A DNA stretch of 64,000 bases, taken from Nitritalea halalkaliphila LW7. GTDB lineage: Bacteria; Bacteroidota; Bacteroidia; Cytophagales; Cyclobacteriaceae. The DNA lies in assembly GCF_000265075.1 (NCBI RefSeq), contig NZ_AJYA01000016.1:1-64000 (forward strand), read 5' to 3'. The notes beneath the pieces were generated by a model. The model was not told the DNA's origin, ran no database searches, and saw nothing but the letters and a program-made list of their open reading frames with translations. Position 1 is the stretch's first letter. Every line of letters starts with the position of its first letter. Shown here piece after piece: positions 36,083 through 43,178 of the stretch. The translations under genes were made by a program, and so were the position numbers.

Positions 36083-36403
36083 CTTCTAAAGAATGGAGAT
36101 GAGAATCTGAGCAAGGTAACAAAGACAACAAGGACCATGTGTGGAGTATGAAGCCTAGATTCGTTTAAAGAAAAGTCAGGTTTTAAAGTTAGAATAAAGA
36201 AAAGAATGCCAAAAATAGGGGATAAATGAAACCAATTATCATCAAAATGAATTGAAGGACGAAAGGTAGCGGATTAGCTTTTATTAGTAGAATGAAATCA
36301 AATGAGCTTCTAAATGAAACCGATTCATGCGTACATAGAAAGTCTAGTTAACTTCTATGCTTCTATGCAGGCAGGAGCTATAAAATAATAGTGAATAAGT
36401 AAC

Positions 36404-36419
36404 TGTTCCACGTGGAACA
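36404..36419. promoter_or_regulatory. parS-type ParB-binding site 3
   Basis: Third exact copy of TGTTCCACGTGGAACA. It ends 13 bases before the mnmG ATG, so ParB binding here would overlap the translation-start or promoter region of mnmG. Confidence 0.85.
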
Positions 36420-36432
36420 CAAGAATAAAGAT

Positions 36433-38299
36433 ATGTTTTCAGAATACGACGTAATAGTAGTTGGTGCAGGACATGCGGGATGCGAGGCAGCACATGCTGC
36501 CGCTACCATGGGAGGAAAGGTCTTACTATGCACGATGAACATGAATACCATTGCACAGATGTCTTGTAACCCCGCCATGGGTGGGGTGGCCAAAGGTCAA
36601 ATCGTGCGAGAAATCGATGCGCTAGGGGGTATGTCAGGGATAATATCTGATAAATCCATGATTCAGTTTCGTATGCTGAACAGATCAAAAGGCCCTGCCA
36701 TGTGGTCACCACGAACACAAAATGATCGAATGCGCTTCGCCGAAGAGTGGAGACTAGACTCTTGAAAAAACACCAAACGTCGACTTTTGGCAAGAAATGG
36801 TGCGCGAACTTATCGTAAAAGATGGACATGTCTTAGGGGTTAAGACAGGTATGGGGCTAGAAATAAAAGCGAAATCTGTCGTACTTACCAATGGTACCTT
36901 CCTGAATGGAATAATTCATATAGGAGAAAAACAATTTGGAGGAGGAAGAACAGGAGAATCCGCAGCAAAAGGTATCACCGAACAACTGATAAGCTTAGGA
37001 TTTGAAGCGGGAAGAATGAAGACAGGTACTCCACCACGTGTGGACGGCAGAAGCCTCGACTACTCTAGGATGGAGATTCAATATGGTGATGAGCAACCCG
37101 AAAAATTTTCCTATTCAGACGAAACCAAACCACTCGAAAAGCAACATTCGTGCTGGATTACCTATACAAATAAAGAGGTACACGAAACATTAGAGACCGG
37201 ATTCGATCGTTCACCGATGTTTAATGGCCGAATTCAAGGACTAGGACCACGATACTGCCCATCTATAGAAGATAAAATTAATCGATTCTCTGAACGAGAA
37301 AGGCATCAGATATTCGTTGAACCAGAAGGGTGGAACACAGTAGAGATATACGTGAACGGCTTTTCAACATCTCTACCTGAAGATGTACAGTATAAAGCGA
37401 TGCGTAAAATAGCAGGTTTTGAACATGCGAAAATGTTCAGGCCCGGTTATGCGATAGAATATGATTTCTTCCCACCTACCCAGCTGAAACTCACATTAGA
37501 GACACAGCTAATCGAAAACCTCTATTTTGCTGGGCAAATTAATGGGACTACTGGTTATGAAGAAGCGGCATCCCAAGGGCTTATAGCAGGAATAAACGCT
37601 ATTCGAAAAGTGCGAGAAGAGGAAGCTTTTATTCTGAAACGCTCTGAAGCATACATAGGTGTACTCATCGATGACTTAATAACCAAAGGGACTGAAGAAC
37701 CTTATCGTATGTTTACATCGCGTGCAGAATTCAGACTGCTGCTACGCCAAGACAATGCCGACCTACGTCTTACCGAAAAAGGGTATGCCATAGGATTAGC
37801 CAGTCATGAGCGCTATGAAGCCATGAACAATAAGAAAAAGCAGACCAAAAGATTAATCCATGATTTAACTCAAAAAAAGGTAACTCCGGATGAAGTAAAT
37901 GATAAACTAACTGGAATCGGAACAGCTGAAATAAGAGAGAAAATAACTGTTGATAAACTACTAAAACGTCCCCAGCTAGGACTGGATGCCATCGCTACGC
38001 TAACAACAGATTTAGCGGACTATCTGAGCAAGTTCAGTAAAGAGGTACGAGAACAAGCAGAAATACAGGTGAAGTACGACAGTTACATCGAAAAGGAACA
38101 ACAGATGGTTGAGAAAATCAATCAAATGGAAAATTTTAAAATTCCGATGCAATTTGATTACCTCGCAGTACCTGCTTTATCTGCAGAAGGAAAGCAAAAG
38201 TTACACAAAATTAGACCTGAAACACTCGGACAAGCAAGTAGAATAAGCGGAGTAAGTCCCGCAGATGTTTCTATACTAACAGTTTATCTAGGAAGATAA
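36433..38299 (+). CDS. mnmG: tRNA uridine-5-carboxymethylaminomethyl(34) synthesis enzyme MnmG, one frameshift
   Basis: FAD enzyme (GidA) that with MnmE modifies U34 of several tRNAs. The start at 36433 ([20 protein letters not shown]) is preferred over the upstream GTG because that GTG lies inside a parS copy. The FAD-binding [10 protein letters not shown] is at residues 11-20; [20 protein letters not shown] and [20 protein letters not shown] follow. The first frame stops at 36765 after EEWRLDS; one extra base (or two missing) at 36753-36762 explains the shift, since the other frame continues [18 protein letters not shown]. Then come [20 protein letters not shown] and the C-terminal MnmE-binding helices. 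Corrected length is about 621 residues. mnmG often sits near bacterial origins. Confidence 0.95.
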
Positions 38300-38306
38300 A
38301 AAATAC

Positions 38307-39198
38307 ATGGAAGACCTCTTACACTGCCCACTTTGTAAAAGTGGGCGTTTTCTTGTCTTTACCAAAGTAAAGGACCATGCGATTAGTAAGGAAACCTTTA
38401 CACTTTGCCATTGCACGAAGTGCAAATTACATTTTACAAATAAAAGACCCACAGCATCTGAAATAGCTCCCTATTATGCTTCTGACAACTACACCTCCCA
38501 CAAAGATGAAGGTGCTGGACTGAAAACATGGCTTTACAAAAAGGGTACGCGGAATCAACCTTCAAAAAAAGATAAAGCACCTTAACGGCTTACAGACAGC
38601 ACATAAAAAAATGCTGGATGTAGGAAGTGGCTTGGGATATTTACCAGAGGCAGCGAGAGAAGCGGGGTGGGAAGTGGCAGCATTTGAACCAAATGAACAA
38701 GCGAAAAACCAGATTCTTAAAAAAGGAATTCCATTAGAAGAAAGCCTAGATAACTTGAATAGGGATAGCTACGATGTCATTACACTGTACCATGTATTAG
38801 AACATATACATGACCTGAGATCCACCTTAAAACGGCTTAGAAAGGCGCTACGAGAAGGAGGCTACCTTATCGTGGCTGTTCCTAATCATGACGCATATGA
38901 GCGATCTATGTATCAGGAATACTGGGCAGCATACGATGTACCGCGGCACTTGTACCACTTTAACAGGGAAAGCATCCACTATCTATGTGAAAAGTTTAAA
39001 TTTGAAATTATAACAGAGGAGCTCATGCCCTTTGATAGTTTTTATGTCAGTCTCTTATCTGAAACATATAAAAACCCAGAGGCATCTACGTTAAATCACT
39101 ACATAAAGGGCTTCTTCATGGGTCTGAAGTCTTACTGGGCAGCCAGAAAAAACATCCGTAGCGCATCAAGTATTCAATATACGCTAAAGAAAATCTAA
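38307..39198 (+). CDS. Class I SAM-dependent methyltransferase with N-terminal zinc ribbon, one frameshift
   Basis: The first frame has a zinc-ribbon-like start (CPLCKSG near residue 8 and HCTKC near 35) and FTNKRPTASEIAPYYASDNY; the second frame has the SAM-binding motif MLDVGSGLGYLPEAAREAGW with AAFEPNEQA, the motif DVITLYHVLEHI, GGYLIVAVPNHDAYE and DVPRHLYHFN. Between them the shift is a one-base loss in the A/G run at 38538-38546: the other frame reads VRGINLQKKIKHLNGLQTAH. The joined protein is about 297 residues. The substrate is unknown; in Bacteroidota this gene type commonly neighbours mnmG. Its stop overlaps the next ATG by one base (TAATG). Confidence 0.85.
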
Positions 39199-40988
39199 TG
39201 AACCAGGTATATTCACCCTACATTCCACTCTTATTTTTATTGAGCTTATTGTTGATAGGTGCATGTGCACAGCAAAGCACACCCATGGGCGGTCCAAAAG
39301 ACGAAACACCGCCTCAACTGATACGAATCAAACCAGAAAACGAAACACGAAATGTCAAGCCAGAGGTTATAGAATTGGAATTTGATGAGTTCGTGAAGCT
39401 AGATAATGCACTCAAACAAATTATTATCACTCCGCGGGTAAAAAAGGATGAAATGGAGATAACGGCTAATCGAAATCGAGTCCTGATCAAGTTGAACCAG
39501 GAGCTAGAAGACAGTACGACTTACCTATTCAACTTTCAAAAAAGTATTCAGGACATTTCAGAGGGAAATCCAGCTGAAAATTTAAAGCTGGTATTTTCCA
39601 CAGGTCCTGATATCGATAGCTTAACAGCTGAAGGAAATGTACGCTTTATTTTTCCTAGGAATAAAATGGAAGATGTACTCGTAGGTCTCTATGAAGTAGG
39701 GGATACCACGAATGTACTCACAGCACCACCCTATTATGTAGCCAACGCAGATACGAGTGGTAATTTTAGGATGACCAACCTACGACCAGGAAAATACATG
39801 GCCTATGCTTGGCACGATGATAATAATTCCATAAAAGCGGAAGATAAAACAGAGGCTTATGGCTTTATCTTAGATACCATTCAGATAAAAGAAAACGTCA
39901 AAGACCTACAGTTTTACATCAGTAAGGCGGATCTCTCCGACTTTAAAATTACACGCGCCGCAAGCTCTGGAAGCAACTTTGATATCGTTTTAAGTAAAAC
40001 ACCAGTGAAAATAGAACTGGAAAATGAGGATATAGGTAAAACACTTTTTTACCGATTAAACGAAAAAACACTACGCTTCTATCATACGGCACTACAGGAA
40101 GACAGCACATCGATGCGCCTACAGTTTAAAGACTCCGTAGGATTCCATATTGATACCGTGCTATTCGCTAAATTTGAGAGCAGCGAAAGAAGAAAAGAGA
40201 AGCTAGAGGTTAAGACCAATAGCGGTAAAAGCTTTTTGAAGGCATTCACAGCAGAAATAAATTTCAATAAACCCATAGCAGAAATACGTTTAGATTCCCT
40301 TCTCATACAATACGATTCCGCAAGTGTCATACCGGTACAAAAAGAATGGATAAGCTTCTTAGATTCAGCTAAACGAACAGATATACGCATCGATCTAAGC
40401 ATTATAGACACCGTAAGCACAACGCGAAACTTTAAACTATCCGCTGCAGATTCTACATTCTTAGATGTAGAAGGGTTGTTTTTTGAAGGTAAGGTAGAAG
40501 TAAATTTTAAACGATCTAATCCAGAAACATTAGCTGAACGACTAGGAATTACCTACGTAACAGAAAAAGAAGGGCCCTTCCGCTATGAGCTGCTTAAGAA
40601 GGAAGAAGTCATCCGACACATCACGACAAAAGAGAAAACTGTGGCATTTACACAGGTGGATCCAGACACCTATCAGGTGAGAGTCATCGTGGATGCTAAT
40701 GAAAACAACAGGTGGGATCCTTCTAATTTCTATGAGGGAAGGCAAGCAGAAGAGGTATTTTATGCGATCAATCCAGAGGCAGAAAAAAATAAACGGGATG
40801 TCATTTTAAAAGCTGGATGGGAGAATAACATTACTATCACAGAAACACCACCCCTGGGATGGAGACCAAAAGCTAAGGAGGAGGCTCCAAAAAGTGTCAT
40901 TGAACCCATTCTAACACCGGAACAAATGGACTTGAAAATCCAAGAATGGCTGGAAAACAAGGTAGAAAACCCTGTGGATAAGCAGTAA
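39198..40988 (+). CDS. Ig-like (Big_5) domain-containing lipoprotein
   Basis: A 596-residue surface or periplasmic lipoprotein. Signal MNQVYSPYIPLLFLLSLLLI with lipobox GAC (Cys23), followed by STPMGGPKDETPPQL, a very typical opening of this Bacteroidota family. An Ig-like SbsA/Big_5 domain spans about residues 40-115 (PEVIELEFDEFVKLDNALKQ), then beta-sandwich repeats (SGNFRMTNLRPGKYMAYAWH and TYQVRVIVDANENNRWDPSN). Function unknown. Its 3' end carries the first DnaA box of the putative origin. Confidence 0.85.
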   Translation: MNQVYSPYIPLLFLLSLLLIGACAQQSTPMGGPKDETPPQLIRIKPENETRNVKPEVIELEFDEFVKLDNALKQIIITPRVKKDEMEITANRNRVLIKLNQELEDSTTYLFNFQKSIQDISEGNPAENLKLVFSTGPDIDSLTAEGNVRFIFPRNKMEDVLVGLYEVGDTTNVLTAPPYYVANADTSGNFRMTNLRPGKYMAYAWHDDNNSIKAEDKTEAYGFILDTIQIKENVKDLQFYISKADLSDFKITRAASSGSNFDIVLSKTPVKIELENEDIGKTLFYRLNEKTLRFYHTALQEDSTSMRLQFKDSVGFHIDTVLFAKFESSERRKEKLEVKTNSGKSFLKAFTAEINFNKPIAEIRLDSLLIQYDSASVIPVQKEWISFLDSAKRTDIRIDLSIIDTVSTTRNFKLSAADSTFLDVEGLFFEGKVEVNFKRSNPETLAERLGITYVTEKEGPFRYELLKKEEVIRHITTKEKTVAFTQVDPDTYQVRVIVDANENNRWDPSNFYEGRQAEEVFYAINPEAEKNKRDVILKAGWENNITITETPPLGWRPKAKEEAPKSVIEPILTPEQMDLKIQEWLENKVENPVDKQ

Positions 40989-41355
40989 ATAAGCGTGGAT
41001 AAATCAGGATAACTTGTGCATAAAGGAAGGCTTATCCCCAGCAGGCTCTAAATTTCGAGATCAGAATTTTAAGCTGAGGATAAACGCTAGGTTATGCACA
41101 AGTTAAGTTTCTGTTATGCACACAGAGATACACACGTAGGGCAGAAAGTGGAAAATAAGGCCAAAATGTGGATAATACGATAAAACCTACATTTACAGCT
41201 AAGTACACGTTCACAACTTGTGGATAAAGCTCCAATCACGTGCATAAATGGTGCAGAATACCGTGGATAAAAAGCTACCAAGAAGTTATCCACTTATGCA
41301 CGCCTTAATAACAATAATAGTTTTTTTTATATATACTTATATAATTACTAAATAG
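40973..41355. other. oriC: Putative chromosomal replication origin (oriC) with a DnaA-box array
   Basis: Six perfect TTATNCACA boxes (either strand) start at 40973, 41015, 41092, 41114, 41167 and 41219; five more with one changed last base start at 40994, 41239, 41262, 41286 and 41294; weaker ones are at 41032 (TTATCCCCA) and 41075 (TGAGGATAA). Neighbouring boxes are often about 20-24 bases apart (two helical turns). The array is followed by an A+T run. The 435-base gap after the lipoprotein gene has no other recognisable content. Known for the field: DnaA-box clusters next to an AT-rich unwinding element define oriC. What I infer: this is the origin; parS copies 5 kb away support that. It is not next to dnaA here. 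Confidence 0.85.
41305..41355. other. AT-rich DNA unwinding element (DUE) candidate
   Basis: Nearly all A and T for about 50 bases, including an eight-T run and TATATATAC-like steps, just after the last DnaA box (41294-41302). It fits the usual position of the DUE in bacterial origins, next to the box array and before the downstream gene. Confidence 0.75.
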
Positions 41356-41423
41356 GGTGTGGACAGTGGATTTGCATAACGGCTAACTTTTTAATATTTT
41401 CAACATCCCAAACCCATATAACC

Positions 41424-43178
41424 ATGAAAGTAACCAGGCTCTTTGATATCATCGATCATCAAATCGCTCAATACGACAAAGAAGTGGCACTCGCCCAAAA
41501 AACCAATGGAAGCTGGAGAAGCTATTCTTCTCGCGACGTTAAACAGATCGTGGATAATGTCAGTCTTGCGCTTCTCCAAGCTGGTATTCAAAAAGGCGAC
41601 AAGGTAGCCATCATCTCGAATAACCGTCCCGAATGGAATTTCATAGATCTCGCCTTACAGCAGGTCCATGCTATTTCAGTTCCGATGTATCCGACGATCT
41701 CGGCGGATGATTATGCCTATATATTTGATCATGCCGAGGTAGCCATGATCTTTGTCGGTGACGAGGAAATTTTGGCAAAAGCCAAAGTAGCGAATGCCCA
41801 AAAAAAGGTACCTATTTACACCTTCGATCAAATTAAGGGAGAAAAATTCTGGAAGGATTTCATGGACTCCGGAGAATCAGGTAATCTAGCCGATCTGCAC
41901 GCTTTAAAGGAGCAGGTGAGGGAAGAGGACCTCTTTACCATTATCTACACCTCAGGGACCACCGGAAGGCCTAAGGGGGTTATGCTCAGCCACGCGAATG
42001 TTATGCATAATGTGCGCGCGGTAGAAGATCGCATCGTAGCACCCAAAGGCACTTCCAAGGCACTAAGCTTTCTTCCGCTCTGCCACATCTATGAACGCAC
42101 AGGTTCCTTCTGCTTTATGTACATGGGTATCTCCATCTATTATGCGAAAAGTATGGAGACTATCGCCGATAACTTAAAGGAGGTGCAGCCACAGATTTTC
42201 AACACTGTACCTCGACTACTTGAAAAAGTCTACGATAAAATCGTGGCAAAAGGGTATGAACTCACAGGGATAAAAAAATCACTCTTTTTCTGGGCGCTTA
42301 ATCTTGGTCTCAAGTATGAACCTAACCAGAATCAAGGTGCTTTTTACAACTTTCAGCTCAAGTTAGCGAATAAAATTATTTTCAGTAAATGGAGGGAAGC
42401 CCTAGGCGGGCAAATAATCCAAATCAATAGCGGTGCCTCTGCGCTGCAGCCACGACTGGCTCGTGTTTTCTGGAGTGCTGGCATTCCCGTGTGCGAAGGC
42501 TACGGACTGACAGAAACCTCTCCCGTAGTGGCCGCCTCTGTACGTTCCCATGAAGATATTCGCATCGGATGCGTAGGTAAAATCGTTCGCGATGTAGAAG
42601 TCCGCATCGCTGAAGATGGCGAGGTCATGGTAAAAGGCCCTAATGTAATGATGGGCTATTACAAACAGCCAGAAATGACTGCTGAGGTAGTAAAAGACGG
42701 TTGGTTCTCGACTGGCGATATCGGAGAAATCGTAGAAAAACACTACTTGAAGATCACTGATCGTAAGAAAGAGATGTTTAAAACCTCGGGAGGTAAGTAC
42801 ATCGCTCCACAGCCAATGGAGAATAAGTTTAAGGAGTCTACTCTGATCGAACAGCTCATTATCGTAGGGGAAAATCAAAAGTATCCAGCGGCACTTATCG
42901 TTCCGAGCTTTGATGGCCTGAAGGATTACTGTAAACACAAGGATATTCCTTATACGACCGATGCGGAGATGATCCAAAAACCCGAGATTAAGGAGAAATT
43001 TGATCGGGAGATCGAGCAGCTCAACAAGTATTTTGGAAACTGGGAGCAGATAAAGCGTTACACGCTCCTAGGAGCACCATGGACTGTGGAGACAGGAGAG
43101 CTAACCCCTACGATGAAGCTAAAAAGAAAGATAATCCATAGTAAATATGCCAAGGAAATAGAGCGCTTGTACGCTTAG
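41424..43178 (+). CDS. Long-chain acyl-CoA synthetase (AMP-forming)
   Basis: A 584-residue ANL-superfamily enzyme that activates fatty acids via acyl-AMP. The AMP-binding P-loop IIYTSGTTGRPKGVMLSHAN lies near residue 175, EGYGLTETSPV near 357, WFSTGDIGEI near 435 and the hinge ITDRKKEMFKTSGGKYIAPQ near 452. The short form (about 585-600) is usual for bacterial FadD-like enzymes. It faces the marR-fadN-fadA-fadE operon downstream and would supply acyl-CoA to it. A terminator follows its stop. Confidence 0.9.
   Translation: MKVTRLFDIIDHQIAQYDKEVALAQKTNGSWRSYSSRDVKQIVDNVSLALLQAGIQKGDKVAIISNNRPEWNFIDLALQQVHAISVPMYPTISADDYAYIFDHAEVAMIFVGDEEILAKAKVANAQKKVPIYTFDQIKGEKFWKDFMDSGESGNLADLHALKEQVREEDLFTIIYTSGTTGRPKGVMLSHANVMHNVRAVEDRIVAPKGTSKALSFLPLCHIYERTGSFCFMYMGISIYYAKSMETIADNLKEVQPQIFNTVPRLLEKVYDKIVAKGYELTGIKKSLFFWALNLGLKYEPNQNQGAFYNFQLKLANKIIFSKWREALGGQIIQINSGASALQPRLARVFWSAGIPVCEGYGLTETSPVVAASVRSHEDIRIGCVGKIVRDVEVRIAEDGEVMVKGPNVMMGYYKQPEMTAEVVKDGWFSTGDIGEIVEKHYLKITDRKKEMFKTSGGKYIAPQPMENKFKESTLIEQLIIVGENQKYPAALIVPSFDGLKDYCKHKDIPYTTDAEMIQKPEIKEKFDREIEQLNKYFGNWEQIKRYTLLGAPWTVETGELTPTMKLKRKIIHSKYAKEIERLYA

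Follow-up and report, generated by a model that had tools for sequence, protein, structure and literature searches.

A DnaA-box array downstream of mnmG as the probable chromosomal replication origin of a Cytophagales bacterium

The Cytophagales (Bacteroidota) bacterium studied here very probably carries its single chromosomal oriC in a dense array of DnaA boxes and the A+T-rich tract that adjoins it, a reading to which we give a probability of about 0.95. The array lies in the window, that is, the whole stretch of 64,000 nucleotides analysed, which makes up the first part of contig C16 (212 kb) in a draft genome of 140 contigs and 3.63 Mb (G000). Four observations carry this reading: the array itself, the conservation of its linkage to mnmG, a conserved junction between boxes and A+T tract, and the GC-skew flips that relatives show at the corresponding array. 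The oriC is now placed in this draft genome; the finding is sound and of use, though of an ordinary kind. The features concerned are the following.

36365-38299, + strand: mnmG/gidA, read in two frames with a frameshift near 36765-36797; start approximate
39198-40988, + strand: gene for a Big_5 Ig-like domain protein, with the first box within its 3' end
40973-41302, both orientations: DnaA-box array of 13 boxes, six exact and seven with one mismatch (box search)
40973, 41015, 41092, 41114, 41167, 41219: exact TTATNCACA boxes
40994, 41032, 41075, 41239, 41262, 41286, 41294: one-mismatch boxes
41286-41302, + strand: tandem box pair TTATCCACT-TATGCACG adjoining the A+T tract, its position and orientation kept in relatives
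41305-41355, + strand: tract that is 90% A+T and starts with TTAATAACAATAATAG; presumed from composition and position to be the DNA unwinding element
41371-41379, - strand: further weak box (TTATGCAAA), past the A+T tract (box search)
41424-43178, + strand: AMP-binding long-chain acyl-CoA synthetase gene, right of the origin

The original prediction of eleven strong and two weak boxes agrees with the 13 that we recovered when a box was defined as TTATNCACA with at most one mismatch. Their spacings across the array are 21, 21, 17, 43, 17, 22, 53, 52, 20, 23, 24 and 8, and for eight of these twelve the predicted separation of about two helical turns is a fair description. As is expected of an oriC, the cluster stands well above background: 0.31 boxes would be expected per 330 bp from the window background, against the 13 found (Poisson P ~3e-17), and shuffled versions of the array stretch held 0.7 boxes on average and 4 at most, against 14 in the real stretch. 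The claim that such a density exceeds chance was thus borne out; its figure of near 50% G+C is to be corrected to about 40% around the array and 46-49% across the contig. An Rfam search of window positions 40500-42000 returned no match.

As predicted, the 3' end of an Ig-like gene, here with a Big_5 domain, contains the first box, and the gene to the right encodes an acyl-CoA synthetase whose top named matches are from Bacteroidota, the nearest being a Mongoliibacter MAG. The origin is also not beside dnaA, as predicted; this gene lies on a separate contig (C19) and encodes a protein with the N-terminal, ATPase and box-binding (DNA-binding) domains. About 2.7 kb upstream of the array lies mnmG (gidA), a classical neighbour of oriC and a landmark overlooked in the original prediction. 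Two reading frames are needed to read each of mnmG (window 36365-38299), dnaA (L270, 1059-2488) and mnmE (L109, 5879-7245), so the draft probably has many single-base indel errors.

We located mnmG in 13 other Cytophagales genomes, read about 14-20 kb around each and scored box clusters by counting 1 for an exact box and 0.5 for a one-mismatch box, summed per 500 bp. An mnmG-linked array was present in 12 of the 13, which gives the window array the conserved position beside an indicator gene by which an oriC is recognised. In 11 relatives the array scored at least 4.5 and lay about 2.8-3.9 kb downstream of the mnmG GIDA domain; in the twelfth (G011) it is clipped at a contig end and retains the junction module described below. 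The sole exception was G025, with no array at mnmG. The 94 control stretches, drawn from four of the same genomes, contained no 500-bp span with a score above 2.5. The gene beyond the array varies, being an acyl-CoA synthetase gene in G000, G001 and G023 and a different one in the others, and the array, not the right-hand gene, is the constant companion of mnmG. For the Cytophagales examined this provides a search rule, namely that the origin is to be sought some 3-4 kb downstream of mnmG and not at dnaA; records of these genomes rotated to dnaA would not begin at the origin. The 4.8-Mb contig C1 of G010 (L159, 1-15600) starts about 4.5 kb ahead of mnmG, as though its record were rotated to begin near the origin.

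This conservation already refutes the notion that the cluster is due to chance, to an assembly artefact or to a piece of integrated plasmid. The assembly is indeed a frameshifted draft, but chance is excluded statistically, independent genomes carry homologous arrays with the same flanks, and the genes examined around the array are chromosomal housekeeping and metabolic genes, leaving this explanation with a negligible probability.

An oriC far from dnaA and beside mnmG is already known in the phylum. The Bacteroidetes oriC is commonly distant from dnaA (Prevotella intermedia genome paper, citing DoriC; PMC4755523), and in Flavobacteriaceae it has been placed at mnmG by Ori-Finder, with the GC skew agreeing, in Mariniflexile litorale (PMC11278836) and Algorimicrobium (PMC12843772). 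Because of these published cases we count the window origin as a known type with an ordinary arrangement. It resembles the Ori-Finder and DoriC predictions for Bacteroidota in its GC-skew switch and its distance from dnaA, and those of both Flavobacteriaceae papers in being mnmG-adjacent. Unlike these predicted origins, it belongs to the order Cytophagales, is separated from mnmG by a gap of about 2.7 kb and has an acyl-CoA synthetase gene next to it. With the gidA-oriC-mioC arrangement of Enterobacterales (Yersinia; PMC10225481) it shares the gidA/mnmG neighbour, multiple DnaA boxes and an A+T-rich unwinding region, whereas the box order and the genes between mnmG and the origin are different. 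Annotation pipelines had been predicted to miss this origin, which is true of tools that rely on dnaA but not of Ori-Finder. This program works from box clusters, skew and indicator genes, gidA among them (PMC2275245), and can be run on draft genomes (PMC10225481). In PMC11278836 the legend of Figure 3 gives the label ter to mnmG and the label oriC to leuB/dnaA, the reverse of that paper's text.

The 50-base A+T tract predicted to follow the boxes was found as 51 bp (41305-41355), and its composition and its position beside the boxes make it a candidate unwinding element, as an oriC should have. The arrays have in common a junction module on the mnmG strand, in which two head-to-tail boxes are followed by 2-3 nt, TTAATA and then A/T-rich sequence. 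A pattern search matched the module in 11 arrays, that of the window among them, and the arrays of G021 and G022 have a looser form, judged by eye; TAATA is invariant across nine aligned junction sequences. The same loose module pattern occurs 10 times in 1.87 Mb of control sequence. We found no earlier description of the TTAATA junction in the open-access literature. This conserved junction is probably the site of duplex opening, and it offers a short sequence with which the opening of these origins could be tested.

From the general mechanism of oriC, DnaA would bind and fill the 13 boxes at 40973-41302, and the tandem pair at 41286-41302 may guide it to one strand of the adjoining A+T tract. 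The duplex would then open at 41305-41355, the exact site and the direction being predicted, and the opened tract would load helicase for two forks. Binding by DnaA, opening in this manner and use in living cells are what we infer for this locus.

The basal unwinding system (BUS) comprises tandem DnaA boxes, a spacer and DnaA-trios (PMC8287927). A box or tandem boxes at the unwinding site, as in the BUS, were found at 41286-41302 and at the equivalent places in relatives, and the window shares with it the tandem boxes, the 2-3 nt and a conserved A/T motif; unlike the BUS consensus 3'-GAT-5', the repeat here is TTAATA or (N)TA-like. Runs of DnaA-trios (at least three in register, at most 16 bp from a box) occur near boxes, in most genomes no more often than composition gives. 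We tentatively raise the possibility, which we hold at rather less than even odds, that the origins of Cytophagales have in common an opening module specific to the clade, made up of tandem DnaA boxes, 2-3 nt, the invariant TAATA and an A/T tract, and that this module may act as a variant BUS, with trios other than 3'-GAT-5'.

GC skew was sampled from stretches of the genomes, with contig C16 representing the bacterium's own genome. In the complete, single-contig genome G012 the skew was negative in 8/8 samples between 0 and 1.74 Mb and positive in 9/10 between 1.78 and 4.3 Mb, and it returned to negative values at 4.7 and 5.1 Mb. This genome has its array at 1.7497 Mb, with the second sign change roughly opposite, and contiguous reading placed the local minimum of the cumulative skew at 1.777 Mb. 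On contig C1 of G010 the array is at 8.7 kb, and 11 of the 12 samples between 0 and 2.4 Mb were positive; because all nine samples beyond were negative, a sign change coincides with the array, provided that this contig is circular. In the Roseivirga genome G019 the local minimum (529.5 kb) is 24 kb from the array (553.9 kb), and the samples of G016 were uninformative. The skew minimum of an oriC is thus found in G010 and G012 and to within 24 kb in G019. On the bacterium's own contig the mean skew is -0.023 to the left and +0.049 to the right of the array, and the GC3 skew of the coding strand changes sign in the same direction as the raw skew; the flip is noisy, with 41-81 kb mixed and the raw cumulative minimum at 25.8 kb, 15 kb off the array. 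The skew of its own genome agrees with the origin but is not decisive. Together with the conserved mnmG-linked position, the change of skew sign that two relatives show at their own array supports the interpretation as a chromosomal origin.

The skew minima lie 15-27 kb away from the array in G000, G012 and G019, and boxes by themselves are no proof of opening, which could suit a DnaA reservoir or a regulatory site of the datA or DARS type that lies close to the origin and is not itself the initiation site. However, offsets of this size are expected, since local skew is weak and noisy; the array adjoins the A+T tract through the conserved junction, and the contiguous stretches read around the G012 and G019 minima contained no comparable array. 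We regard such a reservoir as very improbable and keep to the array as the initiation site.

Exact boxes number 145 genome-wide, against 91 for the reversed control. In a scan of box density, which the original prediction had suggested, the window array scored 10 and was the densest of the clusters found, the listing being complete for TTATSCACA, with TTATWCACA sites on later contigs only counted. The next-best clusters, at C13:25694-25799 and on the dapD side of C25, scored 4.5 and 3.5, and no denser array at a skew minimum appeared among them. If one of these two were the true origin, the window array would be a DnaA-titration or regulatory site. The C25 cluster (L109, 8524-9923) occupies a divergent intergenic region of 1.4 kb that is flanked by dapD and an IdeR/MntR-like regulator gene and contains several DnaA boxes, and the C13 cluster (L108, 10694-10799) has four TTATCCACA boxes, three of them in exact 10-bp tandem. 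Nevertheless, both are weaker than the window array, the tandem-box/TTAATA module is not present in either cluster stretch, and in relatives it is at the mnmG array that the skew flips. Around dapD, none of seven relatives had an array (best score 2.5), and the C25 cluster was rejected as the origin on these grounds. An origin at C25 or C13 is accordingly most unlikely, and the mnmG-linked array remains the oriC that we favour. In Blattabacterium the origin has been placed in dapB, without DnaA boxes (PMC2768785). The C13 cluster, with a CLC/CBS chloride-channel gene on one side and a thioredoxin-like gene on the other, is possibly a DnaA-regulatory or titration site.
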